Source: an uncultured SAR116 cluster alpha proteobacterium (GTDB taxonomy: Bacteria > Pseudomonadota > Alphaproteobacteria > Puniceispirillales > Marisalimonadaceae). Taken from it: a stretch of 34,528 nt of DNA. The position numbers and the translations under genes are program-made. Location of the stretch: the NCBI GenBank assembly GCA_902595145.1, contig CACJOU010000004.1, positions 71,414-105,941 on the forward strand, read 5' to 3'. Shown piece after piece: positions 4,767 through 28,449 of the stretch. The notes under the pieces were generated by a model. It saw nothing but the letters and a program-made list of their open reading frames with translations. It did not search any database and was not told the DNA's origin. Numbering within the stretch: the first letter of the stretch is position 1; each line of letters begins with the position of its first letter.

Positions 4767-4890
4767 TCTAGTTTAACATAATTATGTGAATTACTTAATT
4801 CTTTTTATTTTTATTTTTATATGAATTTGAATACATTTAGATAATTAATGGAAATAGCAGAATAATTTTAAATTCTTCATGAGGGTTATT

Positions 4891-6285
4891 GTGGAAAGAA
4901 AATTATTAGCAGTTGTTGCTGCAGATATGTTGGGATTTTCAAGGTTAATTGAAGATGATGAAATTAATTTACTCTCAAGACAAAAAAATCAATTAAACAC
5001 AATTATTAAACCACAAATAGATAATTATAATGGTGAAATAATCAAGACAACTGGGGATGGATTCTTAGCTATTTTTCCAAGTGCATTGGATGCAGTACAA
5101 AGTAGTGTATCTATTCAAAAAGGGATTTATGAAAATGAATTAGAGAAAACCAATGATAAGAAAATTAGATACAGAATTGGAATTCATGTCGGTGATGTGG
5201 TTGTGGATGATGGAGATATTTTTGGTAATACTGTGAATATTGCAAGTAGATTAGAGTCAATAGCAGATGCTGGAAATATTTGTATTACAAATGATGTTTA
5301 TCAAAGTATCAAAAGTTTGAAATCTTTAATTATAGAAAATATAGGAGAGCAATTCTTAAAAAATATTTCTCAAAAAGTTCAAGTATATAAAATAAATATT
5401 TTAGAAGATGATATAAAGCAAATTCAAGAAAATCATTTGTTAACTGAGGCAAATCAGGAAATAAGATTTTGTAGTTCATCTGATGGAACTATTATTGCTT
5501 ATGCAAGCATTGGGAATGGACCAGCAATTTTAAAAGCACCAAATTTTATGAGTAGTCTAGAACATGATTGGAGAAATCCTGTTTGGACCCACATTTATAG
5601 GCATTTAGCAAAAGACCATACGTTTTACAGGTTTGACCAAAGAGGTAATGGTGTTTCAGACCTTAACCCTGAAAATATAAATTTTGATTGTTTTGTAGAT
5701 GATATGCAAGCAGTAGTAGATGCAGCTAATATTGATAAATTCCCAATATTTGGAGTTTCCCAAGGATGTGCAGTTTCAATAGCTTATGCATATAATAATC
5801 CAGAAAAAGTTACTCATTTGATATTGTCTGGAGGTTTTGCAAGAGGAAGAGCAAAAAGGGGAACGGCTGATTTTGATCAAAAAATTGAATTAGAAAAAAA
5901 TATGATTTTAAATGGATGGGAAAATGAAAATCCTGCATTTAGACAGTTTTTTACATCTACTATGATACCAGATGGAACGAAAGAACAAATGGATGCATTT
6001 AATAATGTAATGAAAATTTCTACTTCTGCAGAAAATGCAGTTAGAATTCAATCCGCTAATGACCAAATAGACGTTTCAGAATTATTACCATTATTAGATA
6101 TTCCAACTTTAATTTTTCATAATATAAATGATGCAAGAGTTCCAATTTCAGAAAGTAAATTTATGGCTGCCAATATAAAAAATTCTAAATTTGTTCCATT
6201 AAATGGAAACAATCATGTAATCCTTGAAGGTGATGAGGGTTGGTCTATATTTAAAGAGGAGTTAAAAAATTTTCTTAAACAATAA
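4891..6285 (+). CDS. Class III adenylate cyclase fused to alpha/beta hydrolase
   Basis: A two-domain soluble protein of about 464 residues. The N-terminal 175 residues form a class III cyclase catalytic domain: metal aspartates in AADMLGF and TTGDGF, an adenine-selecting Lys in KTTGDG and Asp in GDIFGN, and the transition-state Asn and Arg in VNIASR. All are present, so ATP-to-cAMP activity is expected. From about residue 190 an alpha/beta hydrolase follows: FDQRGNGVS, the nucleophile elbow GVSQGC (Ser about 290), Asp in INDARVP and His in GNNHVIL. A GTG at 4891 is chosen over the ATG at 4879 because GAGGG lies six nt before it and relatives begin M-x-E-R-K-L. The domain order is the reverse of the mycobacterial hydrolase-cyclase Rv1900c. 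It is monocistronic and convergent with the LysR gene. Confidence 0.88.
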   Translation: MERKLLAVVAADMLGFSRLIEDDEINLLSRQKNQLNTIIKPQIDNYNGEIIKTTGDGFLAIFPSALDAVQSSVSIQKGIYENELEKTNDKKIRYRIGIHVGDVVVDDGDIFGNTVNIASRLESIADAGNICITNDVYQSIKSLKSLIIENIGEQFLKNISQKVQVYKINILEDDIKQIQENHLLTEANQEIRFCSSSDGTIIAYASIGNGPAILKAPNFMSSLEHDWRNPVWTHIYRHLAKDHTFYRFDQRGNGVSDLNPENINFDCFVDDMQAVVDAANIDKFPIFGVSQGCAVSIAYAYNNPEKVTHLILSGGFARGRAKRGTADFDQKIELEKNMILNGWENENPAFRQFFTSTMIPDGTKEQMDAFNNVMKISTSAENAVRIQSANDQIDVSELLPLLDIPTLIFHNINDARVPISESKFMAANIKNSKFVPLNGNNHVILEGDEGWSIFKEELKNFLKQ

Positions 6286-10376: not shown

Positions 10377-10393
10377 TTTAGATTGGAAATTAT

Positions 10394-11332
10394 ATGAAGA
10401 CTGAATTAAATAACCCAAGAGATAAAATAAAAGTTGTTACCATGAATGGTAGCTTGATGCCTTTAAATAAAGCTAAAGTTTCAGTTACTGCTCCTGGTCT
10501 TTCATATGCTGCACTTGTATTTGAAGGTATTAGGGCATATTGGAACGATAAATTAAATGAATTATATATTTTTAGATTAGATGAACATTTAGTAAGATTT
10601 ACAAATTCGATGAGGCTCTTAAAATTCTCTGAATTTCCAGATTCTTCTACTATTAAAGAGGATATTTTAAAAAATTTAAAAGCTAATAATTACCAAGAAG
10701 ATATCTATATTAGACTTCAAGCCTATATAGACGATTGGGGAGAAATGGCCTTGCAAACTCCAGTAAGTACTTCAATCGTAAGTTATCCGAGACCAAGAGC
10801 AGTTGGATTTAAAGAAGGTAAAAATTTTACTGTAAGTTCATGGCAAAGGCTAGATGATAATGCTAGTCCACCACGTATAAAAGCATCTGCAAATTATTTA
10901 AATAGTAGATTGGCTAGTATCCAAGCTAAAGAGAGCGGTTATGATGGTGGAATAATGTTAACAGCAAATGGCAAGGTAAGTGAAGGACCAGGTGGTTGCA
11001 TTTTCATAATTAGAAACGGTACTTTGATAACTTCAAGTATAACTAGTGGGATTTTAGAGAGTATTACTAGAGATAGTATCATAGAAATTGCAAAGAAATT
11101 TAAATTAAAAGTTGAAAGTCGAGAAGTTGACAGGACGGAATTATATATTGCTCAAGAGATTTTTTACTGTGGGACTGGACAAGAAATAATGCCAATTTTA
11201 AGTGTTGATAAAATGCTCGCTGGAAATGGTAAGCCAGGGGAAATAACTAGGTTTTTACAAAATAAATTTACAGAAATTGTTAGGGGTAACAATAAAGAAT
11301 TTAATGAATGGATTTATCCTGTATACCAATAA
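10394..11332 (+). CDS. Class IV PLP aminotransferase, branched-chain (IlvE-like)
   Basis: A 312-residue fold-type IV aminotransferase. Motifs in order: GLSYAALVFEGIRAYW, YIRLQAY, the PLP lysine in RIKASANYLNSRL, YDGGIMLTANGKVSEGPGGCIF, TSGILESITRDSIIEIA (phosphate cup) and YCGTGQEIMPI. It aligns best with branched-chain amino acid aminotransferases, moving an amino group between a hydrophobic amino acid and 2-oxoglutarate. The position inside a transporter/Hyu/TPP-enzyme/acyl-CoA cluster argues for a catabolic partner that makes a 2-oxoacid, rather than the housekeeping IlvE. A D-amino-acid or aminodeoxychorismate-lyase role is less likely given the sequence length and the GTGQEIMPI motif. 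Confidence 0.88.
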   Translation: MKTELNNPRDKIKVVTMNGSLMPLNKAKVSVTAPGLSYAALVFEGIRAYWNDKLNELYIFRLDEHLVRFTNSMRLLKFSEFPDSSTIKEDILKNLKANNYQEDIYIRLQAYIDDWGEMALQTPVSTSIVSYPRPRAVGFKEGKNFTVSSWQRLDDNASPPRIKASANYLNSRLASIQAKESGYDGGIMLTANGKVSEGPGGCIFIIRNGTLITSSITSGILESITRDSIIEIAKKFKLKVESREVDRTELYIAQEIFYCGTGQEIMPILSVDKMLAGNGKPGEITRFLQNKFTEIVRGNNKEFNEWIYPVYQ

Positions 11333-11346
11333 ATGGGAAGAAAAAT

Positions 11347-12999
11347 ATGAATAAAATTGATCCAATTAAACTTGGAATTATTTGGAAAAGACTTAACGGC
11401 ATGATAGATGAAGTTGCCGAAAGTTTTATTCGTTCTTCTTTTTCAGCAGTAGTTAGAGAAAACTATGACATGGCTTTTAGTCTTCTTGATGTTCATGGAA
11501 GACAATTCATTCAAACAAAAAAAAGTATTCCTTCCTTTATTGGAACATTGCCTCACACACTCCAAGAAATATTAAAAAAAATACCAGCTAATCAGTTTTC
11601 TGAAGGTGATGTTGTAATTTCAAATGACTCTTGGTTAGGCACAGGTCACCTTAACGATATAACAATGGTATCACCTATTTTTAAAAATAAAAAATTAATT
11701 GCATTTGCGGGTAGTACTGCTCATACAGTGGATATTGGAGGAGCACCATCACCAAATGCTCAAGATAGCTATGAAGAAGGGTTATGTATTCCTATCTGCA
11801 AAATAGTAGAAAAAGGAATTGAAAATCAAGTAGTAATAGATTTTTTACAACAAAATCTGAGAGAACCTGAAGAAACTCTTGGAGATATTAGAGCTCAATT
11901 TTCAGCATATGATGTGGCTACAAAAAAATTATTAACATTATTAAATGAAGAAAAATTAAATGATTTGGACCAAATTATTTTAAACATTTTAAAAAAATCA
12001 GAACAAAGTATGAGAAAAAAAATTAAAGATATTCCTGATGGGAAGTATGTTGATGAAATGTTCATAGATGGCTTTGATAAACCTCTAAAGATCAAATGCC
12101 TTATCGAAGTTAAAAAAGATAATATTATTATTGACTTCAGAGGGACATCAAAACAGATAAATAGGCCTATTAACAGTGTATTTAATTATACCTATGCATA
12201 TGCCTGTTATGCTTTAAAATGCGCTATTGATCCAAACGCTCCAAATAACGATGGATCATTTAGACCTGTAAAAATTATAGCTCCTATGGGGACTATTGTT
12301 AATCCAACTAGACCAGCGCCAGTTTGGGGTAGGCATTTAACAGGCCATTATATACCTCCAGCAATCTATGGTGCCTTATCAAAAGTAATTCCTAAGAACA
12401 TAATTGCTGAATCAGGATCACCTCTATGGAATATTTACTTTAAAGGACGGCAAGAAAATAACGATAAACCCTTTGTTAAAATGTTTTTTATGAATGGAGG
12501 TCACGGTGCAAGAAGTGGTAGTGATGGTCCAGGATGTCTAAGCTTTCCTAGCAATGTGTCAAATCAATCTATAGAACAATTTGAAAACCAAGCTCCATTA
12601 TTGGTTCATGAAAAATCTTTTGTAAAAGACACCCAAGGAGTAGGACAATATGTTGGAGGTCCAGCTCAAAAAATCTCATTTGAATCTAAGTCTTCAAAAA
12701 CTATGATGATGACTATTAGGCATGAAAGAGTGATACACCCTCCTAGAGGAATATTAGGTGGAGGAGATGGTTCCAAAGGAATTGATCTTGTAAATAACAA
12801 AAAAATACCTGCAAAAACTTCTTATCCTCTTAAATTTGGAGATATAGCAACTTTTCAAACGCCTGGTGGAGGTGGAATGTATACTCCTAAAAAAAGAGAT
12901 AGAAAAAAAATAATTAACGATATTGAAAGTGGATTATTAAGCTCTAAAAAGGCTAAATTGATTTATAAAAAACAGGTTGAAAGGAACAAAGATGCCTAA
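11347..12999 (+). CDS. hyuB: Hydantoinase B / oxoprolinase subunit B family protein
   Basis: A 550-residue HyuB-type subunit. Diagnostic segments are SNDSWLGTGHLNDITMV (about residues 90-106), AGSTAHTVDIGG, DFRGTSKQINRPINS, NDGSFRPVKI and the glycine-rich C-terminal FQTPGGGGMYTP. I start at the ATG at 11347 (after GGGAAG) rather than the in-frame ATG at 11308, which lies inside the aminotransferase gene and would add a non-homologous extension. HyuB pairs with HyuA in ATP-dependent opening of cyclic amides (N-methylhydantoinase, 5-oxoprolinase, caprolactamase) and in ketone carboxylases. No third subunit, as in acetone carboxylase, is present, which favours the cyclic-amide group. Its stop overlaps the hyuA start. 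Confidence 0.9.
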   Translation: MNKIDPIKLGIIWKRLNGMIDEVAESFIRSSFSAVVRENYDMAFSLLDVHGRQFIQTKKSIPSFIGTLPHTLQEILKKIPANQFSEGDVVISNDSWLGTGHLNDITMVSPIFKNKKLIAFAGSTAHTVDIGGAPSPNAQDSYEEGLCIPICKIVEKGIENQVVIDFLQQNLREPEETLGDIRAQFSAYDVATKKLLTLLNEEKLNDLDQIILNILKKSEQSMRKKIKDIPDGKYVDEMFIDGFDKPLKIKCLIEVKKDNIIIDFRGTSKQINRPINSVFNYTYAYACYALKCAIDPNAPNNDGSFRPVKIIAPMGTIVNPTRPAPVWGRHLTGHYIPPAIYGALSKVIPKNIIAESGSPLWNIYFKGRQENNDKPFVKMFFMNGGHGARSGSDGPGCLSFPSNVSNQSIEQFENQAPLLVHEKSFVKDTQGVGQYVGGPAQKISFESKSSKTMMMTIRHERVIHPPRGILGGGDGSKGIDLVNNKKIPAKTSYPLKFGDIATFQTPGGGGMYTPKKRDRKKIINDIESGLLSSKKAKLIYKKQVERNKDA

Positions 13000-15091
13000 T
13001 CAACCTATTCAATTTTTAATTGGTGTAGATATTGGTGGTACATTCACAGACATTGTTGTGGTTGACCAGATAAGCGGAAAACAATTTAATGGTAAAATTT
13101 TAACAACTCCAATAAATCCTTCAGAAGCCGTTTTGTCAGGTGTTAAAGAAATACTTGCAAGGCATAAAATTGATCCAAAAAAATGTAGAATTATACATGG
13201 TACAACTCTAGTAGCTAATGCCTTAATTGAACGAAAGGGAGTAAAAACAGCTCTTCTTACTACAAAAGGGTTTAAAGATGTTTTAGAAATAGGTAGAGAG
13301 TGGCGATATGATTTATTTGCCCTAGATTTAGAAATGCCATCACCAATCGTTCAGAGGAATTTGAGATTTGAAGTTTCAGAAAGACTGAATTTTCAAGGTA
13401 AAATTATAAAAAAATTAGACGAGAAAGAACTAATTAAAGTAGCTAAAGAAATAAAAAAATCAGATGTAGAAACTTTAGCTATTGTTTTTTTGCATTCATT
13501 TAAAAATGCTACTCACGAGAAACTAGCCAAGAAAATAATACAAAAGCATGTGCCTGGTTTGAACATATGTTTGTCTAGCACTGTTAGTCCTGAGATTGGT
13601 GAATATGAGAGAACATCCACCTGCGTTGCAAATGCATATGTACAACCTATTTTTAAAAAATATGTAAATCTCTTAGCAAAAGGTATAAAAAAAATTGGGA
13701 TTGAGAATGACCTTTTTTTAATGTTATCAGATGGTGGTATAGTACACGAAAAAATTGCTGTAGAGTATCCAATCAGATTAGTCCAGTCAGGACCCGCAGG
13801 TGGTGCTCAAGCAGCCACCTTATTCGGAAAAATTCAAAAAATCAGTGATGTACTTTGTTTTGATATGGGAGGAACAACTGCTAAAGCATGTTTGATTGAA
13901 AATGGAAAACCTAATAGAACTACAATATTTGAAGTCGCGAGAGTTTTTCGTTTTTCAAAGGGAAGTGGTTTGCCACTCCAAGTTCCAGTTGTTGATATGA
14001 TTGAAATTGGAGCTGGTGGGGGAAGTATAGCGCGCATAGATGAAATGGGTTTGATTCAAGTCGGGCCAGAAAGTTCAAGTTCTTATCCAGGACCAGCGTG
14101 TTATGATTTAGGTGGAAAACTGCCAACAGTAACAGATTCTGATTTAATTTTAGGTTACATTGATCCTGATAATTTCTTGGGTGGTGATATGAAACTCATG
14201 AAAGAAAATGCTGAAAAAGCAATTAAAGATTATATAGCTAAACCAATGGGTATATCCGTGTTAGATGCAGCCTGGGCCATACACGAGGTAGTTACAGAAA
14301 ATATGTCTCAAGCAGCAACAATTCATGCCTTAGAAAAAGGAAGGAAAATAGAAAAATTCTGTATGATTCCAATTGGTGGAGCTGGTCCTGTCCACGCATG
14401 TAGTATGATGGCTAAAATGAATATTAACAAAATGATTAGTCCATCAAATGCAGGAGTTGCCTCAGCAATTGGAATGATAGCGTCACCAAATGCTTTTGAA
14501 TTAGTGCAGGCAGACATGCAAAATTTAGAAGATTTAAATTTTATAAAACTTAAAAGAAAATTTAATTTATTAAAAAAAGAGGGAGAAAAGTCATTACTTA
14601 AAACTGGAACCAAATTAAATAAAATAAACATCTCTAATAGTCTGTTAATGAGATATATTGGTCAAGGTTATGAGGTAGAAGTACCAATAAACAATAAATG
14701 TTTAAATAGTAATAATATTAAAAATATCAGTATTGAATTTGAGAGAGTTTATAAAGATCTATTCGGACGAATTGAAAAAATGCCTTTAGAAATTATTTCT
14801 CTAAGAACTATCGCAACAAGCATATCGTCACAACCTGTCATTAAACAAGAGAAGATAAATTTATCCATAATTCATAAAAACTCAAAAAAAAGAAAAGCGT
14901 ATTTTGGTGGAAAGACATTTTTAGACACTCCAGTTTTTCAAAGAAACAATTTGCCGAAAAACTTTAAAAAAAATGGCCCGTTAATTATCGAAGAAAGAGA
15001 GTCAACTCTAATTATACCGCCTTACTTTAATCTAAAAATGGACTCTACAGGTAATCTTTTAATAACTAAAGAAAGTCGAAATGAAAAATAA
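12992..15091 (+). CDS. hyuA: Hydantoinase A / oxoprolinase subunit A family protein
   Basis: A 699-residue ATPase subunit of the hydantoinase/oxoprolinase family. The N-terminus has the acetate/sugar-kinase phosphate-1 loop GVDIGGTFTDIVVV; then come HGTTLVANALIERKG, TTKGFKDVLEIGRE, QSGPAGG, FDMGGTTAKACLI (phosphate-2-like), EIGAGGGSIA, VGPESSSSYPGPACY and GGAGPVHA. It would phosphorylate an amide or carbonyl oxygen, with HyuB supporting hydrolysis. The ATG at 12992 is preferred (AAGGA six nt upstream) over the TTG at 12977. It overlaps hyuB by 8 nt and the next gene by 11 nt. The exact substrate cannot be told from sequence; hydantoin, pyroglutamate-like lactam or another cyclic amide all fit. 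Confidence 0.92.
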   Translation: MPNQPIQFLIGVDIGGTFTDIVVVDQISGKQFNGKILTTPINPSEAVLSGVKEILARHKIDPKKCRIIHGTTLVANALIERKGVKTALLTTKGFKDVLEIGREWRYDLFALDLEMPSPIVQRNLRFEVSERLNFQGKIIKKLDEKELIKVAKEIKKSDVETLAIVFLHSFKNATHEKLAKKIIQKHVPGLNICLSSTVSPEIGEYERTSTCVANAYVQPIFKKYVNLLAKGIKKIGIENDLFLMLSDGGIVHEKIAVEYPIRLVQSGPAGGAQAATLFGKIQKISDVLCFDMGGTTAKACLIENGKPNRTTIFEVARVFRFSKGSGLPLQVPVVDMIEIGAGGGSIARIDEMGLIQVGPESSSSYPGPACYDLGGKLPTVTDSDLILGYIDPDNFLGGDMKLMKENAEKAIKDYIAKPMGISVLDAAWAIHEVVTENMSQAATIHALEKGRKIEKFCMIPIGGAGPVHACSMMAKMNINKMISPSNAGVASAIGMIASPNAFELVQADMQNLEDLNFIKLKRKFNLLKKEGEKSLLKTGTKLNKINISNSLLMRYIGQGYEVEVPINNKCLNSNNIKNISIEFERVYKDLFGRIEKMPLEIISLRTIATSISSQPVIKQEKINLSIIHKNSKKRKAYFGGKTFLDTPVFQRNNLPKNFKKNGPLIIEERESTLIIPPYFNLKMDSTGNLLITKESRNEK

Positions 15092-16685
15092 AATTAAAAT
15101 TTCTGAAATGATTGCTATTCACCTAAAAAATATTGGTGTTCAAAAGGTTTTCGGAGTTCCCGGTGGTGGTAGTAGTTTAGATTTAATAGATGCTTTTGAA
15201 AAAGTAGATATAGATTTTCATTTAGTAAAAAGAGAAGATGCAGCTGTTATAATGGCGAGTGTTTTTGGAGAGATAACAAGATCAATTGGAGTTGCTCTTG
15301 TTACTAAAGGGCCGGGATTGTCAAATTCTATAAATGGAATAGCATACTCATCTCTTGATAGATCACCATTAATTTTATTTAGTGATGGATTTTCAGATAA
15401 ACTAAGTTCATTTGTTACTCATCAAGTTTTTGATCAAAAAAAGCTAATGTCCCCATTTAGTAAAAACTACACAAATTTACAGAATGAAAATCCAGAAAAA
15501 GAGTTTAAAAATTTAGTCTCAAATGCTTTGATACCTCCTTATGGACCAGTTTATATAGAATTAATATCGTCTGTAGCTCAAACAATAATTGAAAATAAAA
15601 ATTTTGAACCAAATATGGACATTTCAGATAAAAGTTTTTCTCTTGATGATAAAGTTATCTCTTTATTAGAAAAGTCTAAAAAACCTGTAATAATTCTAGG
15701 TTTAGAAAATTTAATTGAGGACACCTCTAAGACTGTTACAGAAATTATAGATATTGTTAATTGTCCTACTCTTGTAACTTATAAAGCAAAAGGTGTAATA
15801 CCGGATGAACATAGAAATTTAGTTGGAATTTTTACAGGAGGTAAGGCTGAACAAATTTCCATATTAGATTCTGATTTAATAGTTCTTATTGGTTTAGATC
15901 CAGTAGAACTAATACTACAACCTTGGCCTTATAATATCCCTGTTTTAAATATTTCTCTAGTCAATCATGAAACACATTATGTTAGTCCTAATGCTAACTT
16001 AATTGGGAAGCTTAGTGACAACCTTGAAAAGATAAAATTTTTTTTTAATAAATCTGATTGGATGAATAGTGAGATAAAAAATTTCAAGCAAACAATAAAA
16101 TCAAAACTAATTTTTCCTAGTAATAATAAACTTAATCCCCAATCTATTGTTGAGCTTGCCCAGCAATACAATAAAAATCCAAGAATATCTATAGATGCAG
16201 GAGCGCATATGTTTTCTGCAACAGCATTTTGGAAAGCATTAAAGCCTTTTGATATTCTGATTTCAAACGGTTTGGCAACAATGGGTTTTGCCTTGCCGGC
16301 TGCAATATCGTCAGCATTGGCAAACCCAGAAAAGGGTACAATAGCATTTACAGGAGATGGTGGATTTATGATGTGTTGTTCAGAATTGGCAACTGCTGTT
16401 CAATATAATGCTAATATCTTAGTTATTGTGTTTAATGACGGAGCATTATCTTTAATAGATATTAAACAAAAATCTAGAAATTTGAAAAGATCAGGAACAA
16501 CATGGCCAAGATCAAATTTTGCAGAAGTAGCAAATGGTTTTGGTTGTAAATCATGGAAAGTTGAAGATATTTCATCATATGAAAATGCTTTAATTGAGGC
16601 ATCTAATTTAAAAGGACCACGTCTAATTGATGTTTGGGTTGACCCAGATGGATATAAAGAACAATTGAAATCGCTCAGAGGATAA
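15081..16685 (+). CDS. Thiamine-pyrophosphate-dependent enzyme, acetolactate-synthase/2-oxoacid-decarboxylase-like
   Basis: A 534-residue three-domain TPP enzyme. The N-terminal PYR domain has VFGVPGGGSSLDL and the activating Glu in VKREDAAVIMA (about residue 51), then TKGPGLSNSINGIA. A central domain spans about 190-310. The C-terminal PP domain has SNGLATMGFALPAAI and the Mg-TPP motif starting FTGDGGFMMCCSEL and closing with VFNDG. The closing motif has Asn-Asp where most ALS enzymes have Asn-Asn. There is no IlvN small subunit nearby, and the cluster is catabolic, so a 2-oxoacid decarboxylase, carboligase or 2-oxoacid lyase is more likely than biosynthetic acetolactate synthase. It overlaps hyuA by 11 nt and ends 17 nt before the acyl-CoA dehydrogenase. 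Confidence 0.85.
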   Translation: MKNKIKISEMIAIHLKNIGVQKVFGVPGGGSSLDLIDAFEKVDIDFHLVKREDAAVIMASVFGEITRSIGVALVTKGPGLSNSINGIAYSSLDRSPLILFSDGFSDKLSSFVTHQVFDQKKLMSPFSKNYTNLQNENPEKEFKNLVSNALIPPYGPVYIELISSVAQTIIENKNFEPNMDISDKSFSLDDKVISLLEKSKKPVIILGLENLIEDTSKTVTEIIDIVNCPTLVTYKAKGVIPDEHRNLVGIFTGGKAEQISILDSDLIVLIGLDPVELILQPWPYNIPVLNISLVNHETHYVSPNANLIGKLSDNLEKIKFFFNKSDWMNSEIKNFKQTIKSKLIFPSNNKLNPQSIVELAQQYNKNPRISIDAGAHMFSATAFWKALKPFDILISNGLATMGFALPAAISSALANPEKGTIAFTGDGGFMMCCSELATAVQYNANILVIVFNDGALSLIDIKQKSRNLKRSGTTWPRSNFAEVANGFGCKSWKVEDISSYENALIEASNLKGPRLIDVWVDPDGYKEQLKSLRG

Positions 16686-20038: not shown

Positions 20039-20821
20039 ATGATTATTAATCATGGGGTAAGAGGATCAACACCAAATCCTAGTCAAAATTATTTATTTTT
20101 TGGCGGCAACACCCCTTGTGTGGAAATTAAAACTCAGAAATATCAACTTATTTTCGATTGTGGTTCAGGGTTTTCAAAAGTTAATTTTTCAAATGATCTT
20201 GAAACTATATTGTTTATTTCACATTTCCACCACGATCATATACAAGGACTAGCTTTTAATAATTATGATACAGATATAAATAAAAAAATTACTTTAACAT
20301 CGGCTCATTCTAACAAATCTGTTACCTATAACAATTTGAGTGCTTATTATAATAATCCTTATTTTCCAGTAAATTTTATTGAAATTATTAACAGATTTAA
20401 TTTTTTAGATTTTGAACAAGTTGTAAATGATTTTGAAGATTTAAATATAAATTCTATTAATCTAAATCATCCTGGAAGTTCCTCTGGATATAGTATTAAG
20501 AGTGATAATAAAAAATTTTGTTATCTATTAGATAATGAATATGAAGATATTCAAGAAGAAAAATTAATTAATTTTTGTGATCAGTCAGAAGCTATCATCT
20601 GGGATGGTATGTTCTTAGACAGTGAATTGTCAGACAAAAAAGGTTGGGGACATTCAAGTATTGAGCAGGGTATTGCTTTAGCAGATAAAATTGATGTTAA
20701 AAACTTTCTTATTTCTCATCATTCACCATCCAGGGATGACAAAGAAATAAAAGATATAAAAAATAAAATTAGTAATAAGAAAGTCAAATTTGCATCTGAA
20801 AATGAGGTTATAGAGTTCTAA
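20039..20821 (+). CDS. MBL-fold metallo-hydrolase, possible cyclic-nucleotide phosphodiesterase
   Basis: A 260-residue metallo-beta-lactamase-fold enzyme. The start GVRGSTPNPSQNYLFFGGNTPCVEI and LIFDCGSGF are typical of a group with ribonuclease Z/PhnP-like and cyclic phosphodiesterase members. The metal set is complete: HFHHDH (about residues 61-66), His in LNHPGSS, Asp in YLLDNEYED and His in LISHHSPS. It should bind two metals and cleave a phosphodiester. No signal peptide, so cytoplasmic. Its stop TAA shares one base with the ATG of the cyclic-nucleotide-binding gene, and a cyclase is encoded further on in the same run. That context makes a cAMP or cGMP phosphodiesterase the most attractive guess, but the fold alone does not prove it. 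Confidence 0.85.
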   Translation: MIINHGVRGSTPNPSQNYLFFGGNTPCVEIKTQKYQLIFDCGSGFSKVNFSNDLETILFISHFHHDHIQGLAFNNYDTDINKKITLTSAHSNKSVTYNNLSAYYNNPYFPVNFIEIINRFNFLDFEQVVNDFEDLNINSINLNHPGSSSGYSIKSDNKKFCYLLDNEYEDIQEEKLINFCDQSEAIIWDGMFLDSELSDKKGWGHSSIEQGIALADKIDVKNFLISHHSPSRDDKEIKDIKNKISNKKVKFASENEVIEF

Positions 20822-21159
20822 TGGAAAAAACAAAATTCAACCAAAATCAAAGTGTTTTTAAAGTTGGTGAACTTCCAGACAAGATGTACTTGTTGGTTAA
20901 GGGATCTGTAGGAATTTTTCTACCCACAAATGAAACTAACAAACCAAATTTTGTAATCCAAGAAAATGAACTTTTTGGAGAAATGGGTGTCATAGAAAAT
21001 GAACTTAGAATGGCTACAGCAAGATGTCTGGCAGATAGTGAAATTATTTCTATTACCAAAGATGAGTTTGATAAACGTGTAAATAATTCAGATGTTTTTG
21101 TTAAAGGTTGCTTAAAGGCTTTATCATATAGATTAAGATCAGTAGAGAAAAAGATGTAA
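20821..21159 (+). CDS. Stand-alone cyclic-nucleotide-binding domain protein
   Basis: A 112-residue CRP-type beta-roll without any DNA-binding domain. VFKVGELPDKMYLLVKGSVGIF forms the early strands; the phosphate-binding cassette is ELFGEMGVIENELRMATARC, with the ribose-binding Glu (FGE) and phosphate-binding Arg (LRMA) present. The residue after Arg, Ser or Thr in most cAMP/cGMP binders, is Met, so affinity or ligand may differ. The C-terminal helix YRLRSVEKK could dock on a partner. Start and stop abut the MBL gene and the kinase gene, so it is probably co-translated with the kinase and may act as its cyclic-nucleotide-sensing subunit. This partnership is inferred. Confidence 0.88.
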   Translation: MEKTKFNQNQSVFKVGELPDKMYLLVKGSVGIFLPTNETNKPNFVIQENELFGEMGVIENELRMATARCLADSEIISITKDEFDKRVNNSDVFVKGCLKALSYRLRSVEKKM

Positions 21160-21177
21160 ATGAAAGAAGGTTTAAAT

Positions 21178-24100
21178 ATGCTTAAAGATTTGGATATTGC
21201 GAAGGTTTTAATAGAAGCTTTTGATAATGATGAAACTGGTATCTTGTTATATGACAAAAAAGATAAATTGTGTTTTGCAAACAAACCCATGTTTACAAGG
21301 TTTAATAGGCTCAACGTTAATTATGAAATAGGTGAGAGTGTTTATGAAAGAATGGAAAAATTCAAAAAATTAAAAATCATACCTGTAGAAGAAATTAATC
21401 AAAGAATAGATAATTATAAGAAAGTTAAAAAAACAAAAATTGCCTCTCAGTACGTCATAAAAGGCCCTACAGGTAGATGGATACAGATAAGAGACAATCT
21501 TACTCCTTCTGGCTATATTTTAACTGTAATGACTAATGTTACAGATATTATTGAACAAGATCTTGAAAGAAAACGCCTATCCGAGGCTATCGAGAATTTT
21601 CCAGGTGGTGTTATGTTTTGGGATGAAAATGATCAACTGATTGTCTCTAACAGACGTAACCAAGAAATAATGAAACAAGCTGGAATAGATTTTATTTTGG
21701 AAAAAGGTATTAAATATGAACAAATGTTAAAAAAACAAGTTAACAGTGATTTATACGTTTTACCCAAGGGTACTTCAAAATTAAAATACATAAAAAAAAG
21801 ACTTCAAGAAAGAGCAGAATTAAAATCAAGAACAAGAGAAATTAACTTACAAAATGGCACTACAATTATTGCAAATGAGACTAGGTTTGATGATGGATCT
21901 CTTCTAAGTGTATATACTGATATTACAGATTTAAAAAACAAAGAATCTCAATATAAACAACTAGCAGACGCGCTTGATAATCTTCCAATACCAATGTTAT
22001 TTTGGGATAAAGACGATAAATTAATTACATCAAACAAAAAATCACGTGATTTTCATAAAAAATACTCAATAAAGTTAGATAATGGTTCTACATGGCAGAA
22101 TTTATTTGAAAACCAACTTAAAAAAAATATCTACGTCATCCCTAAAAATATTGATGTTAAGAAATTTGCTAAACAAAGAGCTATTTCAAGAAAAAAACTA
22201 GTAAGTAGCTCTCAAAGAGAAGTCGAATTGAGGGATGGAAACACACATTTAAGTAGTGAGATGAGATTAGAAGATGGATCAATTTTAAGTGTTTTTACAG
22301 ATATAACTGAAATTAAGGAAAGAGAAGCTAAATTAACCCAATTAACAGATGCCATAGAGATTTTACCTAATGACGTTATGTTATGGGATAAACAAAATAA
22401 TCTAGTGATGGCGAATAAAATAGCTCGTAAAAATCAAAAAAAATATGGTTATGAGCTTGTAGAGGGAGCCTCTCGAGTTGGTATGGTTGAAAATTTACTT
22501 AAACGTGGTTTTGTAAAAGCTCAAAATAAAATGACTCCAAAAGAATTTATAGAAAATAGAAAAAAAGATTTCGTAAATTTAAAGGGTAATAGAACATTTG
22601 AGCACGCCCTTAATGATGGTTTGGTTAACTTAGTTTCTACAACAAGATTGCCAAGTGGAGGTACAGTTCAGTGTTTAACAGATATTACTGAATTAAAAAA
22701 ACAAGGAGCTGAATTATTAAGATTAAAAGACGGAATTGAGACACTCCCAAACGGTTTAATGTTCTGGGATGAAAATGATGATCTTATTGCATTTAATAAA
22801 AGTTCAAAGAAATTTTTAAAAGATTATGGATTTGATTTAAAAATTGGAAAAAATTTTAGTGAATTAAGAAAGCATATGCTTATGAACCATCAAAAGCCTC
22901 CAAAAGGTGTAAGTAAAGAAGATCATTACAAAAACAGAGAAAAAGCATGGAAAAATCTTAAAGGTCAAAATATTAGAGAATCTAATTTCACTAATCACAC
23001 TCTTCATTTTTCCGATACAAGATTAGATGATGGTAGCACAATTTGCTTATGGACTGACATTACTGACATAAAAAATCAAGAAAGAGAACTTTTAAGATTA
23101 AAAGATGCTATTGATATATTACCAAATGGTTTGTTTTTCTGGAATGAGAAAAATAAATTAATAGCGACTAACAAATCTGCCATTGATCACCTAAAAGAAT
23201 TTGGATTTGATTTGCGTCTAGGAGTTGACAGGTTTGATCATGTCAATCACTTGGTTGATCATAATTATAACGTTTTACAAACTGGATTAGATAAAAAAAC
23301 CCACATGAAACGAATGAAAGAAAGTTGGGATAACTTTACTGGTCAGCGAACAAGAGAAACAAAATTTTCAAATGGATTACATTTTCTCTTTACTGACACC
23401 AGGTTAGAAGATGGAAGCACGATCTCACTTTGGTCTGATATAACAGAGATAAAACAGGTGGAAGATAGTCAAAAACAACTTATTGACGCAATCGACGTTA
23501 TGCCCAACAGTATTTCTTTGTGGGACAAAGATAATAAACTAATTATGGCAAATAAAACATCAATCAATGATATGAAAAAATTAAATTTTGAATTGAAACC
23601 GGGAGTGCCAAGAATTTCCATGGTCAGAAATGTTGTAAATCGTGGATTGGTCCCCATTCCAAAAGGGATAACAAAGAAACAGTTTTATGAATTAAAATTA
23701 AAAGAATATGAAAGTTTAAAAAATGAACAGAGGGATGAAATAGAGCTTAACAATGGTAATTTTGTTTTAAATATCTCTAAAAGACTACCAGATGGAGGAA
23801 CACTGCAAAACTCCATAAACATTACGGAGATTAAAAAAGGAGAAAAATCATTAAAATTGCTTAGTGATGCTATAGAGATCATTCCAAATATGCTAATGCT
23901 TTGGGACAGAGATAACAAATTAATTATGGCAAATCGTCGTGCCAGAGATATTCAGAGTAAAATGGGAATTACTCTTAAACCGGGTGTTTCTAGATTTGAC
24001 ATGCTTGAAGCTGGATTAAAATCAGGATCTTTGCTTGATAGCGAGGGTCTTTCTGCAAAACAATGGGTAGAAAAGAGGAAAAAAGAAATTGTTAATCTTC

Positions 24101-27045
24101 GTGGCAGGGAAATAGTTGAAACTAGGATAAAAGTTGAAAATGTTATTTATGATATTTTAGGCTCATTTACTAGATTAAATGATGGTGGAACCTTACAAGT
24201 TTGGACTGATATTTCAGAGATTAGGCAAAAAGAAAGAGAGGTTGCTGAAAGTCAGAGAAAAGTTAGAGAAGCTGAGGAAAAAATTTCTAATGCTCTTAAT
24301 AGTATGCCTCATGGAATTGTCATGTGGGATGAAAAAGACAAATTAAAAATGATTAATGAATATGGAAACAAGGTCCTTGAAAGAGGAGGGGTATTTGTAA
24401 AGCCTGGTGTGGATTATAAAGAATATATAAAAATGCAGAAAAAGAATAATTTCCATAAATTCAATAATAGGAGAGAAAAAGAAGAATATTATGAAGTTGG
24501 ATTAAAAAACAGAAAAATTTTAAAAGGTGTTACAACTATAGAAACGCCACCTTTTTATGACGATTCAATATGGCAATCAACATCTACACGCTTGCCAGAT
24601 GGAGGTATATTTTCAATTTTATCTAATATTACTGAAATAAAACAAAGAGAAAAATCACTTAAACAGCTTAATGATGCAATTGAGGTAACTCCAAATGCAA
24701 TCTTATTGTGGGATAATGAGCATAGGTTGATTATGGGTAACAAGGCAGCTAGGGACATTCAAAAAAATCTAGATTATGACTTAAAACCTGGAATTTTAAG
24801 AAAAGACATGATCGATAATGTTGAAAAAAAAGGGTTGGTTGCAATCCCTGATGGAATGACAAGTAAAGATTTTTATGAACAACGAAGACAAGCTGCAAAG
24901 AATAAAAAAAGTAATATGTATGAATTAAATTTTACAAATGGACTTGTGTGGTTAGTGAATGACACAAAACTATCTGATGGTGGTTTTTTACAAGTTTATT
25001 CTGATATTACCGAAATGAAAGAACAAGAAAAGCAAATTAAGCGCGCACGAGAAAAGGTAAAGGAAACTGAAAAGAAAATGTCTGACGCTTTAAATAGTAT
25101 GCCTCATGGAATTACTATGTGGGATAAAGATGACACTTTAGTTTTTGCCAATACATTTGCTAGAGAAATTCAGGGTGGTGCTGGTGTAAAGTTTAATATT
25201 GGAGAAAGGTATGAAGATTATCTTCAAAAACAAAGAAAACATAAATTTATGAAATTTAATAGCCCTGAAGAAGAAAAAGAATATTTTGATAATGCAATAG
25301 AAAACAGGAGAAATATTAAAGGTGAAGTAACCTTTCAACCACCTCAATTTTATAATAATACATATTGGAATGCTACCTTCAATCGCTTAAATGATGGTGG
25401 TCTTTTTGCAATATTTTCCAATATTACGGAATTAAAAAAACGTGAAGAAGAACTTAATAAAACAATAACTGAGTTAGATGTTGCTAGAGAAAAAGCTAAT
25501 GCCGCTAATCAGACCAAAAGTCAATTTCTTGCAAATATGAGTCATGAATTAAGAACACCTTTAAATGCCATAATAGGTCTAACTGAGATGTTAAAAGAAG
25601 ATGCGGCAGATGATGGCTTGGATGATTTTGAAGAGCCACTTGATAGAGTTTTCAATGCAGGTAAACATCTTTTAACATTAATTAATGATGTATTAGATTT
25701 ATCAAAAATTGAAGCAGGAAGGGTTGAATTATTTAATGAAACATTTGAGCTAAAACAAATTTTGGATGATGTTATTAAAACTTCATTACCTTTAGCTCAG
25801 AAAAATGAAAATGAATTAATTATTGATTATAAAACTGAGATTGATTTTGTGACTGCTGACCAAACTAGGGTTAAACAGGTTGTTTTGAATTTAATTTCTA
25901 ATGCTTGCAAATTTACTGAAAAAGGGAAAATAACTGTTGGAGTAAATAAAATTTTGCGTGAAGGTGGTGACCTAATTTCTATAGATGTAAATGATACAGG
26001 TATTGGTATGTCTGACGAGCAAATGTCTAGACTGTTTAATTCATTTGTCCAGGCTGATAGTTCAACAACAAGAAAATACGGAGGAACAGGGTTAGGACTT
26101 ACTATTTCAAAACAGCTTGCAATATTAATGGGCGGTGATGTTGTGGTAAATAGTGAGTTAGGAAAAGGTACGACTTTTACAGCAACATTTCTAGCAGACT
26201 TCATTGGTGCATCTGAAAGTCTAAAAAATTTACAACAAAAAACTGGTTCTTTAATTGAGAATGTTATTACTTTGGAAAATAATACAGGAAAAACAATTTT
26301 AATAATTGACGATGATCCAACTGTAAGTGAACTAATGAAACGACAATTATTGAAAGAAGGATATAAGGTGGTTATTGCACCAAATGGAAAAGAGGGAATT
26401 AGTTTAGCACGAGATCTTAAACCTGATGTTATTACTTTAGATATTTTGATGCCTGAAATGGACGGGTGGTCAGTTCTTCGTACTTTAAAAGCTGACCCTG
26501 AAGTTTCTAACATACCTGTAATTATGGCTTCAATATTAGATGAGAAGAATAAAGGATTTTCTTTGGGAGCTGCGGATTTTTTATCAAAACCTATCCAAAA
26601 AGAATATCTAATGAAATCAATTAGAAATTTGATAGGTGATAAAGAAAATCTTAAGATTTGCCTTATTGAAGATGATGAAAGTTTAAGATTTACAATTAAA
26701 GAGATTCTTGAAAAACAAGATGTTCAAATTATAGAGGCAGAAAACGGCAAAGTTGGGATGGATATTTTACAGAATGAAGAAATCAAACCTGATTTAATTT
26801 TGTTAGATTTGATGATGCCTGTAATGAATGGTTTTGAATTTTTAAAAGCTATAAGAGAAACTGAATTAAATTCTATTCCCATTTTAGTTTTGACTGGAGC
26901 AGAATTAAGTGGAGATGAAAAAACATTTTTGTTAGGTGAAACTCAGAGAATACTTGAAAAAAGTGAAGATACAATGTCTACAATCGTTAATGAGGTAAGT
27001 AATGTTATTAAGGCTTCTTCATTTAAAAATGGAGATAACAAATGA
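21178..27045 (+). CDS. Giant soluble hybrid histidine kinase: eleven PAS-type modules, HisKA-HATPase, two receivers
   Basis: About 1955 residues with no membrane segment. Eleven PAS-type modules of roughly 125-140 residues begin near residues 4, 134, 262, 389, 516, 641, 768, 895, 1036, 1164 and 1301. Nearly all open with a form of AI-x3-P-x2-(I/L/V)MLWD-x3-KLI-x-NK and close with (T/S)RL-x-DGG-x-L-x-V-x-TDITE-IK, as in PAS_7. HisKA has FLANMSHELRTP (His about 1456); HATPase has LISNACKFTEKG, DTGIGM and YGGTGLGLTI. Two receivers follow with phospho-Asp about 1755 (TLDILMPEMDGW) and 1877 (LLDLMMPVMNGF). I prefer the ATG at 21178 (AGAAGG eight nt before) to the one at 21160, which abuts the previous stop. 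The last modules repeat as an A-B-A-B pair with coiled-coil linkers. The stop overlaps the next ATG (ATGA). No single ligand can be assigned. Confidence 0.95.
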   Translation: MLKDLDIAKVLIEAFDNDETGILLYDKKDKLCFANKPMFTRFNRLNVNYEIGESVYERMEKFKKLKIIPVEEINQRIDNYKKVKKTKIASQYVIKGPTGRWIQIRDNLTPSGYILTVMTNVTDIIEQDLERKRLSEAIENFPGGVMFWDENDQLIVSNRRNQEIMKQAGIDFILEKGIKYEQMLKKQVNSDLYVLPKGTSKLKYIKKRLQERAELKSRTREINLQNGTTIIANETRFDDGSLLSVYTDITDLKNKESQYKQLADALDNLPIPMLFWDKDDKLITSNKKSRDFHKKYSIKLDNGSTWQNLFENQLKKNIYVIPKNIDVKKFAKQRAISRKKLVSSSQREVELRDGNTHLSSEMRLEDGSILSVFTDITEIKEREAKLTQLTDAIEILPNDVMLWDKQNNLVMANKIARKNQKKYGYELVEGASRVGMVENLLKRGFVKAQNKMTPKEFIENRKKDFVNLKGNRTFEHALNDGLVNLVSTTRLPSGGTVQCLTDITELKKQGAELLRLKDGIETLPNGLMFWDENDDLIAFNKSSKKFLKDYGFDLKIGKNFSELRKHMLMNHQKPPKGVSKEDHYKNREKAWKNLKGQNIRESNFTNHTLHFSDTRLDDGSTICLWTDITDIKNQERELLRLKDAIDILPNGLFFWNEKNKLIATNKSAIDHLKEFGFDLRLGVDRFDHVNHLVDHNYNVLQTGLDKKTHMKRMKESWDNFTGQRTRETKFSNGLHFLFTDTRLEDGSTISLWSDITEIKQVEDSQKQLIDAIDVMPNSISLWDKDNKLIMANKTSINDMKKLNFELKPGVPRISMVRNVVNRGLVPIPKGITKKQFYELKLKEYESLKNEQRDEIELNNGNFVLNISKRLPDGGTLQNSINITEIKKGEKSLKLLSDAIEIIPNMLMLWDRDNKLIMANRRARDIQSKMGITLKPGVSRFDMLEAGLKSGSLLDSEGLSAKQWVEKRKKEIVNLRGREIVETRIKVENVIYDILGSFTRLNDGGTLQVWTDISEIRQKEREVAESQRKVREAEEKISNALNSMPHGIVMWDEKDKLKMINEYGNKVLERGGVFVKPGVDYKEYIKMQKKNNFHKFNNRREKEEYYEVGLKNRKILKGVTTIETPPFYDDSIWQSTSTRLPDGGIFSILSNITEIKQREKSLKQLNDAIEVTPNAILLWDNEHRLIMGNKAARDIQKNLDYDLKPGILRKDMIDNVEKKGLVAIPDGMTSKDFYEQRRQAAKNKKSNMYELNFTNGLVWLVNDTKLSDGGFLQVYSDITEMKEQEKQIKRAREKVKETEKKMSDALNSMPHGITMWDKDDTLVFANTFAREIQGGAGVKFNIGERYEDYLQKQRKHKFMKFNSPEEEKEYFDNAIENRRNIKGEVTFQPPQFYNNTYWNATFNRLNDGGLFAIFSNITELKKREEELNKTITELDVAREKANAANQTKSQFLANMSHELRTPLNAIIGLTEMLKEDAADDGLDDFEEPLDRVFNAGKHLLTLINDVLDLSKIEAGRVELFNETFELKQILDDVIKTSLPLAQKNENELIIDYKTEIDFVTADQTRVKQVVLNLISNACKFTEKGKITVGVNKILREGGDLISIDVNDTGIGMSDEQMSRLFNSFVQADSSTTRKYGGTGLGLTISKQLAILMGGDVVVNSELGKGTTFTATFLADFIGASESLKNLQQKTGSLIENVITLENNTGKTILIIDDDPTVSELMKRQLLKEGYKVVIAPNGKEGISLARDLKPDVITLDILMPEMDGWSVLRTLKADPEVSNIPVIMASILDEKNKGFSLGAADFLSKPIQKEYLMKSIRNLIGDKENLKICLIEDDESLRFTIKEILEKQDVQIIEAENGKVGMDILQNEEIKPDLILLDLMMPVMNGFEFLKAIRETELNSIPILVLTGAELSGDEKTFLLGETQRILEKSEDTMSTIVNEVSNVIKASSFKNGDNK

Positions 27046-27416
27046 CAAAGATATTATATGTAGAAGACAACGAAGACAATGTTTATATGTTATCAAGACG
27101 TTTAAAAAGGAAAGGTTTTGAAATAGTTATTGCTGTTGACGGAGAGCAGGGTGTTGAGATGGCGTCCTCAGAAAAACCAGATCTTATTTTAATGGATTTG
27201 AGTTTACCAAAAATGGATGGATGGACTGCAACTAAACATATTAAAAGTAAAGATGAGCTTAAATCAATTCCAATAATTGCTCTATCAGCACACGCAATGG
27301 AAGAACATAAACAAAGAGCACTTGATAGTGGTTGTAATGATTATGATACTAAACCGGTAGATATCAATAGGCTATTATCTAAAATATCAGAGCAATTAGG
27401 TACTAAAAATGATTAA
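27042..27416 (+). CDS. Single-domain response regulator (DivK-like receiver)
   Basis: A 124-residue receiver domain with no output. Acidic pocket EDNEDN (residues 8-13), phospho-acceptor Asp in LILMDLSLPKMDGW (about residue 52), switch Ser in ALSAH and Lys in DTKPVD are all present. Stand-alone receivers of this type act as phosphate shuttles or allosteric binders; this one overlaps the giant kinase by 4 nt and the receiver-cyclase gene by 8 nt, so it probably carries phosphate between them. The sequence resembles DivK and its relatives, but this is a generic similarity and no role in the cell cycle is claimed. Confidence 0.93.
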   Translation: MTKILYVEDNEDNVYMLSRRLKRKGFEIVIAVDGEQGVEMASSEKPDLILMDLSLPKMDGWTATKHIKSKDELKSIPIIALSAHAMEEHKQRALDSGCNDYDTKPVDINRLLSKISEQLGTKND

Positions 27417-28449
27417 CAAAGAGGATGCAAATATACTAATTGTTGATGATATCGAAGATAATAGATATACGCTTGAAAGAAGATTAAAAAGAGATGGTTA
27501 TAAAAATATCTTCCTAGCTGAGGGCGGTAAAACAGCTCTAGATATGGCTACGAAAAACAAATTTGATTTAATACTTTTAGATCTTATGATGCCAGATATG
27601 AGTGGTCTTGAGGTTCTTAAATATCTAAAAGGTGATCCCCTACAAAGATCTATTCCTGTCATTATGGTTACAGCTTCTGATGAAGTGGAAACAGCTGCAG
27701 AATGCATCATAAATGGTGCCGATGATTTCATTACTAAACCTTTCAATGGAACTTTGCTCAAAGCAAGAGTTGGAGCAAGTCTTGAGAAAAAAAGATTAAG
27801 AGACACTGAAGAAAGTTATTTAGATAGAGTTGAAACAGACAAAAAAAGATCACAACAAATATTGAAAACTGTTATGCCAACCTCTGTAGCTAATGAACTT
27901 CAGTCATCTGGTAAAGTTAGGTCTAGAAGATATGATGACGTGGCAATTTTAATATGTGATTTAGTTGGCTTTACATCATTTTGTGAAAAAAATGACCCAG
28001 AATTAGTTGTTGAAACATTGCAAGGTCTTGTAGAAAACTTTGAAAAAGCCTTTGAAGATTTTGGCTTAGAGAAAATTAAAACAGTTGGAGACGCTATTGT
28101 TGCAGTTGCAGGGTTATCTTCACACGCCATTTCTCCTGTTAAATCTTGTGTAGATTGTTCTTACAAATTAAGGGAGATTGCAAATACGTCATCAATGCCT
28201 TGGAATCTCCACCTTGGAATACACTCTGGTTCTCTTGTTGCTGGAACAGTTGGGACAAAAACAGTGCAATTTGATATTTTGGGAAAAACAGTAAATATGG
28301 CATTTAATATATGTGATATGTCTGACTCAAATCAAATTCTTATTTCTAGTGATGCTTGGATGACAGCAAGAAATGAAATTAAAGTAAAATCAATTGGATT
28401 AAAAAGATTAAAGAGTGGCCAAGACATTGAAATGTTAGAATGCGTTTAG
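27409..28449 (+). CDS. Receiver-adenylate/guanylate cyclase fusion with altered active site
   Basis: A 346-residue two-domain effector. Residues 5-125 are a receiver: VDDIEDN, phospho-Asp in LILLDLMMPDMSG, Lys in FITKPF. A helical signalling linker (about 126-165, with the cyclase-associated KTVMPTSVANEL segment) leads to a class III cyclase domain: metal Asp in ICDLVGFTSF and KTVGDAIVA, adenine-selecting Lys in KTVGD and Asp in FDILG, transition-state Asn in TVNMAFN. The expected Arg of VNxAxR is Asn here, which should lower or abolish turnover unless another residue compensates. It ends the signalling island, 2 nt from the convergent oxygenase gene. Phosphorylation by the upstream kinase through either receiver is the likely input. 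Confidence 0.92.
   Translation: MINKEDANILIVDDIEDNRYTLERRLKRDGYKNIFLAEGGKTALDMATKNKFDLILLDLMMPDMSGLEVLKYLKGDPLQRSIPVIMVTASDEVETAAECIINGADDFITKPFNGTLLKARVGASLEKKRLRDTEESYLDRVETDKKRSQQILKTVMPTSVANELQSSGKVRSRRYDDVAILICDLVGFTSFCEKNDPELVVETLQGLVENFEKAFEDFGLEKIKTVGDAIVAVAGLSSHAISPVKSCVDCSYKLREIANTSSMPWNLHLGIHSGSLVAGTVGTKTVQFDILGKTVNMAFNICDMSDSNQILISSDAWMTARNEIKVKSIGLKRLKSGQDIEMLECV

Follow-up and report, generated by a model that had tools for sequence, protein, structure and literature searches.

Five closely packed genes in a marine alphaproteobacterium carry between them the parts to make, sense, and destroy a cyclic nucleotide, together with a phosphorelay. The locus raises the question of whether these genes form one signalling device and, if so, how that device came together and what feeds it. 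The genes occupy positions 20039 to 28449, on the plus strand, of a 34,528-nucleotide stretch of DNA (G000:C4:71414-105941; hereafter the window, meaning this whole stretch) from a member of the SAR116 cluster, the source genome being a 1.42-Mb draft that is 72% complete. Members of this cluster are common in the surface ocean, and to our knowledge little is known of the signals they sense. We read the operon as a self-contained device for cyclic AMP (cAMP) signalling that consists of two units and has an exchangeable PAS-domain input, and put the probability of this reading at roughly 60%.

Gene order and two separable units

The first gene encodes a metallo-beta-lactamase (MBL)-fold hydrolase of 260 amino acids (20039..20821), which on the grounds of its PF12706 match, metal ligands, and AlphaFold model is likely a cyclic-nucleotide phosphodiesterase, that is, an eraser. 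It is followed by a lone cyclic-nucleotide-binding domain (CNBD) protein of 112 amino acids, the putative reader (20821..21159); a hybrid histidine kinase of 1961 amino acids (21160..27045); a lone receiver domain of 124 amino acids (27042..27416; PF00072, 93.6 bits); and a receiver-class III cyclase of 346 amino acids (27409..28449; Response_reg and Guanylate_cyc). All five domain assignments exceed the curated Pfam cut-offs. In the kinase, Pfam passes ten PAS_7 stretches followed by HisKA, HATPase_c, and two Response_reg stretches, the composition of a hybrid histidine kinase, whereas the profiles built in this analysis recognize eleven PAS units. The MBL and CNBD genes have one base in common (TAATG), the kinase ATG directly follows the CNBD stop, and the overlaps are 4 bases between kinase and receiver and 8 bases between receiver and cyclase. 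An identical five-gene order was found in other SAR116 loci, including L084–L087, whose MBL proteins are 52–55% identical to that of the window; because the order recurs in this way, the arrangement is not due to chance. At L086 and L087, the flanking genes differ on both sides. An earlier interpretation made from the DNA letters alone (the sequence-only reading) had described the genes as lying end to end or overlapping, which is confirmed, and had proposed a search for their co-occurrence in this order in other genomes, for which these loci are positive cases.

Relatives of the MBL gene were collected from 61 genomes including the source genome (36 with a match), from 69 GTDB contig loci, and from the class, in which 53 of 114 genomes matched, and the neighbouring genes were labelled with profiles built in this analysis. 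The counts below refer to 68 distinct close MBL proteins with a profile score of at least 335, below which fell fragments and the partly masked L125. Kinase PAS units were present at 27 of these loci and absent from 41, with L077, whose contig begins inside the kinase past the PAS part, counted among the latter. A small CNBD gene lay within 50 bp of the MBL gene at 26 of the 27 PAS-kinase loci, the exception being L081, in which the MBL frame is broken, and at 27 of the 41 others. Similarly, a class III cyclase lay within 2.5 kb at 31 of the 41 loci without a PAS kinase (19 of 26 when only loci with 3 kb or more of sequence on each side were counted), versus 4 of 40 more distant class-wide relatives, these 40 regions being mostly the best-scoring of 78 places besides that of the window. 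The class-wide relatives mostly lacked both a CNBD partner and a nearby cyclase. The cyclases near these MBL genes are varied, ranging from 293 to 797 amino acids, and one that was scanned has GAF and PAS domains. Among same-order loci outside the genus, where 12 of 16 places were fetched, 5 of the 12 had a cyclase within 2.5 kb against 0.19 expected from the PF00211 counts in the same genomes (Poisson P = 2e-6), although these cases represent about three arrangements rather than five events (L047 and L049 are alike, as are L052 and L053), and the cyclases were found with our own profile and the background counted with that of Pfam. Two sets of loci weigh against a general coupling of eraser, reader, and cyclase: a CNBD gene within 50 bp is lacking for 14 of the 41 MBL genes without a PAS kinase (at L047 and L049 one lies about 2 kb away), and the MBL–CNBD pairs at L050, L051, L054, L055, L088, L090, L093, and L107, as well as that of L125 outside the counts, have no cyclase in the locus sequence. 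The MBL–cyclase link nevertheless recurs well beyond the operon, and the earlier proposal of components able to make, sense, and destroy a cyclic nucleotide alongside a phosphorelay is supported.

The remaining three genes also occur by themselves. Relatives of the receiver-cyclase (E < 1e-45) were detected in 11 of 191 class genomes, the source genome included, and at 4 of 9 fetched regions (L210, L211, L213, and L214) they form an adjacent kinase–receiver–receiver–cyclase triad, which is rearranged at L212. In these nine regions, of 12 outside the source genome, no MBL or CNBD gene was found. Since the triad occurs elsewhere without the pair, the operon as a whole appears to combine two units, each of a known type, namely, the MBL–CNBD pair and the kinase–receiver–receiver–cyclase triad. 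A receiver-cyclase of the frame length typical of the five-gene module (349 amino acids, in one case 362) was present in at least 25 genomes of the genus, 23 of which were MBL-positive; G009 and G023 have a receiver-cyclase of this length and no MBL match, and their contigs may end first. In a tree of 114 MBL rows, rooted at the midpoint and with some long outer branches, the pair-linked proteins formed one clade of 72 rows (100/99), with the class-wide relatives outside it, and the kinase-linked proteins formed one clade of 30 rows (100/99) that also held L081 and L045. The latter locus belongs to a genome rated 100% complete (G030), and has the MBL–CNBD pair and lacks the kinase and any PAS_7. 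Most simply, these sequence relationships would mean that the operon was assembled once and that the triad was later lost in L045.

These neighbourhoods also bear on the partner of the CNBD protein, which the sequence-only reading had supposed to feed cAMP back on the kinase. Consistent with such feedback, in the window the kinase start follows the CNBD stop without a gap, and the CNBD–kinase order is kept in the module loci except L077. However, at L077 the halves of the operon are swapped (kinase–receiver–cyclase–MBL–CNBD), and the CNBD gene again stands beside the MBL gene; it adjoins the MBL gene at 27 of the 41 loci without a PAS kinase, L077 among them, mostly near other cyclases, and also at the triad-less L045, and is missing from the nine regions with receiver-cyclase relatives elsewhere. 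Relatives in which the MBL and CNBD genes are unlinked from the kinase had been named by the sequence-only reading as a result that would refute it, and such relatives exist. We consider feedback on the kinase improbable, and the CNBD protein is better read as a partner of the MBL protein than of the kinase.

A mosaic PAS array

The input side of the operon is a mosaic array of eleven PAS units of about 120 amino acids each, spanning kinase residues 20 to 1429 (21217..25446). This array, like the altered cyclase described below, was not part of the sequence-only reading. From 27 kinase open reading frames, two of which are the halves of the broken L081 frame, 251 PAS units were extracted, and these fell into 68 clusters at 75% identity, 40 of them with more than one member. 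Excluding L081 (two pieces) and the contig-truncated L059, the 24 complete arrays contain 6 to 12 units each, and 23 of them are distinct. No cluster is repeated within any one array, the clusters of the first and last slots are confined to those slots, and the order of units is kept in all 127 array pairs that have at least two clusters in common.

Unit content is exchanged between lineages within this fixed order. Among the 300 pairs formed by 25 kinases (only L081 dropped), 9 have MBL proteins that are at least 95% identical, and in 6 of these at least half of the units are less than 65% identical. For example, the MBL proteins of the window and L059 are 97% identical, and nine of ten PAS units are at 40–59%; between L043 and L072, identity is 98% for the MBL protein, 99% for the cyclase, and 41–54% for units 4–8 of L072. 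In the opposite direction, MBL identity is below 80% in 211 pairs, and in 8 of these no fewer than half of the units are shared at an identity of 88% or higher. At fourfold-degenerate sites, L073 and L064 are identical at 228 of 272 positions in the shared units versus 99 of 207 in the MBL, CNBD, and cyclase genes, and L082 and L059 at 215 of 263 versus 29 of 73 in the flanks. Such silent-site agreement reaches 1.00 in shared units against approximately 0.4 in the flanks, and since the excess lies at silent sites, it indicates transfer rather than protein constraint. Enough silent sites were available in 50 of the 300 pairs, with the shared units clearly more alike than the flanks in 10. Free exchange is tempered by two observations: the reverse pattern, in which units are less alike than flanks at silent sites, appeared in 4 of the 50 scorable pairs, and the arrays retain a trace of descent, MBL identity correlating weakly with the fraction of shared units (r = 0.40).

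The draft metagenome-assembled and single-cell genomes from which the arrays come could suggest that the mosaic is an assembly artefact, and one of the metagenome-assembled genomes, L082, is a partner in several of the pairs that give the strongest evidence. Because the units within an array are at most 66% identical to one another and no tandem repeat was found in the array of the window, collapse or mis-joining is unlikely; moreover, shared unit types turn up in many contigs, and the kinase frames are open except in L081 and L067. Relaxed selection, the other explanation of this kind, cannot give silent-site agreement of shared units where the flanks differ. We regard artefact or relaxed selection as a very unlikely source of the mosaic, and recombination of PAS units as its cause. 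Gene conversion from a second PAS_7 array of the same genome was considered and rejected, as no such array was found in 8 genomes, where the single further PAS_7 match was below the cut-off. A search of PAS unit 10 against viral contigs gave no match.

The structure of the units is in keeping with exchange through their ends. In the comparison of L061 with L069, one unit type differs (unit 11), and the changed stretch lies between the conserved ends of that unit; L061 and L080 likewise form a natural pair with a single differing unit type, unit 9. The model of PAS unit 10 (24667..25041; predicted local distance difference test (pLDDT) score of 92.8) has a PAS fold, with matches including FlrB, NifL, FixL, and DosP. 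Column entropy across 63 units was 1.3–2.0 in the N-terminal helix, strands A, B, and I, the A–B and H–I loops, and the linker helix, and 2.5–2.9 in helices C–F and strands G–H, so that the ends are conserved and the ligand-side helices variable. The variable region is where PAS domains commonly hold ligands. The conserved ends can serve as recombination hooks, and different arrays would presumably sense different ligands. We tentatively propose, at less than even odds, that the kinase is a population-level library of sensor cartridges, in which ordered PAS slots hold alleles exchanged by homologous recombination and thereby rewire a fixed operon for making, reading, and erasing cAMP to fresh combinations of signals. 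If this is true, the array would play, in combinatorial PAS form, the part of hypervariable recognition receptors, and the MBL–CNBD pair would serve as its dedicated reset unit on the output side. With PAS units exchanged and output genes fixed, these loci offer a natural sensor-swap set for studying PAS ligands, and the swapped arrays also suit the question of how tandem PAS arrays add signals.

A candidate eraser, its putative sensor, and an altered cyclase

The MBL protein matches Lactamase_B_2 (PF12706) at 39.5 bits against a cut-off of 27 bits, and PF02112, the classical class-II phosphodiesterase family, was not among its Pfam hits at E 0.001. In an alignment of 26 rows, H62, H64, D66, H67, D165, and H228 are invariant and H144 nearly so, giving a full two-metal site, and the WDGM and WGHSS motifs are conserved. 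Its SHFHHDH sequence fits [T/S]HXHXDH, the motif under which YhfI and Rv1339 are grouped as atypical class-II phosphodiesterases, near RNase Z, in a published account (PMC9293780). The motif is not diagnostic of a cyclic-nucleotide phosphodiesterase, because RNase Z fits it too in our alignment. The AlphaFold model of the protein (pLDDT 93.9) matched short RNase Z/ELAC1 structures first, followed by YhfI, PhnP, and PqqB, and further fold matches included Brucella MBL proteins solved with AMP or GMP, Apyc1 (ranks 39, 48, and 49), and yeast PDE1 (rank 44). The top PDB sequence match of the family profile was YhfI (E = 3.3e-9), for which a published study (PMC9117128) describes a strong preference for cAMP and cyclic GMP (cGMP).

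With a superfamily and fold in common and ELAC1 as the top fold match, the MBL protein could instead process tRNA 3' ends or act as a PhnP-like cyclic phosphate hydrolase, and stand near cyclases by chance. The profile scores speak against an eraser in the same sense: NF041851 (cyclic nucleotide-degrading phosphodiesterase) gave 24.5 bits against an equivalog cut-off of 400 and was outscored by RNase Z (TIGR02651), itself at 76.3 bits against 292.95. The PhnP score (TIGR03307) was likewise low, at 38.1 bits against an equivalog cut-off of 272.25. RNase Z was above its curated cut-off in none of 6 genomes tested, and the window-type MBL protein was the second-best protein in each; however, the best candidate in all 6 was a different MBL protein of 263–265 amino acids (G000:C13:16365-16787 and kin). 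The family is absent from 11 of 23 relatives rated at least 90% complete, which speaks against a housekeeping function. Furthermore, receiver–MBL fusions, apparent response regulators with a hydrolase output, were confirmed in 3 of 5 long-frame relatives inspected (L223, L227, and L241; no receiver start was seen in L237 and L244), and these tie the family to two-component output. Together with the repeated linkage to cyclases and CNBD genes, these observations make a tRNA-processing or PhnP-like role unlikely. The likeliest function of the MBL protein, judged from its sequence and setting, is that of a cAMP eraser with its own cAMP sensor, with cAMP as its presumed substrate. At L223, the fusion gene lies directly downstream of a kinase fragment and a lone receiver. 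On an Anaerolineaceae (Chloroflexota) contig (L127), the gene for a distant MBL protein of the family overlaps a gene that is CRP-type by eye.

The CNBD protein matches PF00027 only, at 57.8 bits against a cut-off of 27.5, and its 112 amino acids include no C-terminal helix-turn-helix (HTH), so it does not qualify as a CRP/FNR regulator; the absence of a DNA-binding part had already been noted from the sequence alone. E54 and R63, which we take to be the ribose-binding glutamate and the phosphate-binding arginine, are invariant in 20 aligned MBL-partner CNBDs. The P-loop reads FGEMGVIENELRMA, with Glu and Arg retained, versus FGEMALIDNQNRSA in the cAMP-binding Bd1971, and the cAMP-binding motif is intact. 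The sensor domain of Bd1971 was also the best PDB match with a stretch that passes by itself (E = 1.6e-23), although the total score of 9ya0_MA, a chain of 2736 residues with no such stretch, was higher. The published account of Bd1971 (PMC6717892) describes how cAMP or cGMP on its CNBD switches on an EAL phosphodiesterase. The CNBD of the window has Met where Bd1971 has Ser and many cGMP-specific kinases have Ser or Thr, which suggests that cGMP is not favoured as its ligand. Contact between the CNBD and MBL proteins is presumed, and the two would form a compact candidate eraser carrying its own sensor. For marine Alphaproteobacteria, the pair also offers a prediction of what uncharacterised MBL genes next to cyclases do. 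Within the genus, a genome can contain as many as 14 class III cyclase matches. Among the CNBD genes examined (L245–L249 and L273–L275), only L248 (HTH confirmed) and L249 (by sequence) were CRP-like, the remainder being short or double-CNBD-like, with HTH absent where scanned. G003, which has no MBL match, encodes a lone CNBD of 115 amino acids (L248:859-1206), MBL-partner-like by eye, beside a CRP-type gene.

The aligned module cyclases keep an Asp pair and adenine-type Lys/Asp residues, presumably metal-binding and adenine-binding, respectively, except in L082, where the copy is incomplete, and they also keep the Asn of the VNxA motif. Four places on is Asn300, at what we assume to be the position of the transition-state arginine of class III cyclases. 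Arg occupies this position in 6 of 6 receiver-cyclases outside the module, four of them from intact triads, and in every other aligned neighbouring cyclase covering the column. An active cyclase is disfavoured by the presence of Asn instead of Arg in 21 of 21 distinct module copies and by alteration of the C-terminal KGKG motif (KSGQ in the window). Because of these changes, the module cyclase, on its own, may produce little cAMP; its activity may be low or may depend on a mixed dimer with a partner. A candidate partner, or possibly an alternative source of cAMP, is a second class III cyclase of 468 amino acids encoded at 4879..6285 (plus strand), which has the expected Arg and whose counterpart is found some 3.4 kb upstream of the MBL gene in many close relatives and only 45 bp upstream in L078.

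This residue-complete cyclase and the loss of Arg with retention of the metal- and base-binding residues would also fit a pseudo-enzyme that makes no cAMP itself and instead binds ATP, or forms a pair with a second cyclase, such as that of 468 amino acids, and regulates it. However, a kept metal Asp pair and adenine-type residues are unusual in a dead enzyme, and the role of Arg, on which no passage was found in PMC2447327, is an assumption on our part; we see the pseudo-enzyme as a serious possibility, although not the favoured one. A Pycsar-like antiphage system, which also combines a cyclase with a CNBD protein and to which PADLOC hits (PycC, 49 bits; PycTIR, 28 bits) would point, is by comparison extremely improbable. 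The hits are limited to the cyclase and CNBD domains common to both systems, the five proteins contain no TIR or membrane effector by Pfam, and the cyclase, which has residues of the adenylate type, carries a fused receiver. The module also belongs to one clade, with its order conserved across the genus, and searches of plasmids with the CNBD and of phages with the MBL protein gave no match at the limits used.

In the window, about 10 kb (6295-16685) separate the gene for the 468-amino-acid cyclase from a gene of 383 amino acids; by eye, this interval holds genes for a LysR regulator, a tripartite tricarboxylate transporter, an aminotransferase, hydantoinase-type proteins, and a thiamine pyrophosphate (TPP) enzyme. 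L061 has part of these genes, and in L039, L059, and other relatives the cyclase gene adjoins the 383-amino-acid gene. A TPP riboswitch lies at 4676-4770 on the minus strand, upstream of genes that are thiamine-like by eye, and an Rfam scan of the window at gathering scores gave nothing else.

Proposed mechanism and comparison with known systems

In the device that we propose, the multi-PAS hybrid kinase would pass phosphate to its own receivers, the lone receiver, and the receiver-cyclase, as the domain types suggest, and the receiver-cyclase, alone or paired with another cellular cyclase, would alter cAMP. The MBL protein would hydrolyse cAMP and so reset the system, and the small CNBD protein would bind cAMP and switch the MBL protein, with the eraser probably on at high cAMP, a direction of regulation suggested by analogy with Bd1971. 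Homologous recombination through the conserved ends would let lineages exchange PAS units, one at a time or several in a row, with their positions in the array kept, and cells with the same output operon could thereby sense different signal sets.

The sequence-only reading had offered the gene set as a candidate for something undescribed. Its parts and units are of known type and appear to have been brought together in one operon; neither the MBL–CNBD pairing, nor its joining to a phosphorelay, nor an array of exchangeable units appeared among the titles and abstract openings listed in searches of open-access papers. The atypical class-II phosphodiesterases (YhfI, Rv1339, and C. glutamicum CpdA) and phage Apyc1 have PF12706, the motif, and the RNase Z-like MBL fold in common with the MBL protein of the window, which is 14–17% identical to YhfI and Apyc1 in structural alignments. 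Unlike the YhfI group, it has its own GVRGS, WDGM, and WGHSS motifs, falls below the NF041851 cut-off, and is encoded with a lone CNBD. In Bd1971, the cAMP-switched cyclic di-GMP phosphodiesterase of Bdellovibrio and the closest solved CNBD by self-passing stretch, the CNBD likewise switches a phosphodiesterase and not DNA binding, but it is fused to an EAL enzyme whose substrate is cyclic di-GMP, whereas the CNBD of the window is a separate protein beside an MBL protein.

On the phosphorelay side, the CyaC-type adenylate cyclases of cyanobacteria combine a PAS kinase, receivers, and a class III cyclase in one pathway. The alphaproteobacterial triads at L210, L211, L213, and L214 have a triad order identical to that of the window, but the regions examined lack MBL and CNBD genes, the cyclase Arg is kept, and 1–4 PAS units were detected, versus 6–12 in the SAR116 module. 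The polymorphic sensor kinases AgrC and ComP have a hypervariable sensing half and a conserved kinase half at one locus. These two are peptide receptors of the membrane, each co-varying with a signal gene, whereas the module swaps PAS units singly, and no signal gene was recognised beside the PAS arrays. Studies on BvgAS evolution (PMC2737282) and on myxobacterial two-component systems (PMC4603909) may also bear on the evolution of such sensors. Compared with these systems, each part of the operon is of a known kind, and the apparent novelty lies in the pairing of an MBL with a CNBD protein, in the coupling of that pair to a phosphorelay, and, most of all, in the exchangeability of the array.

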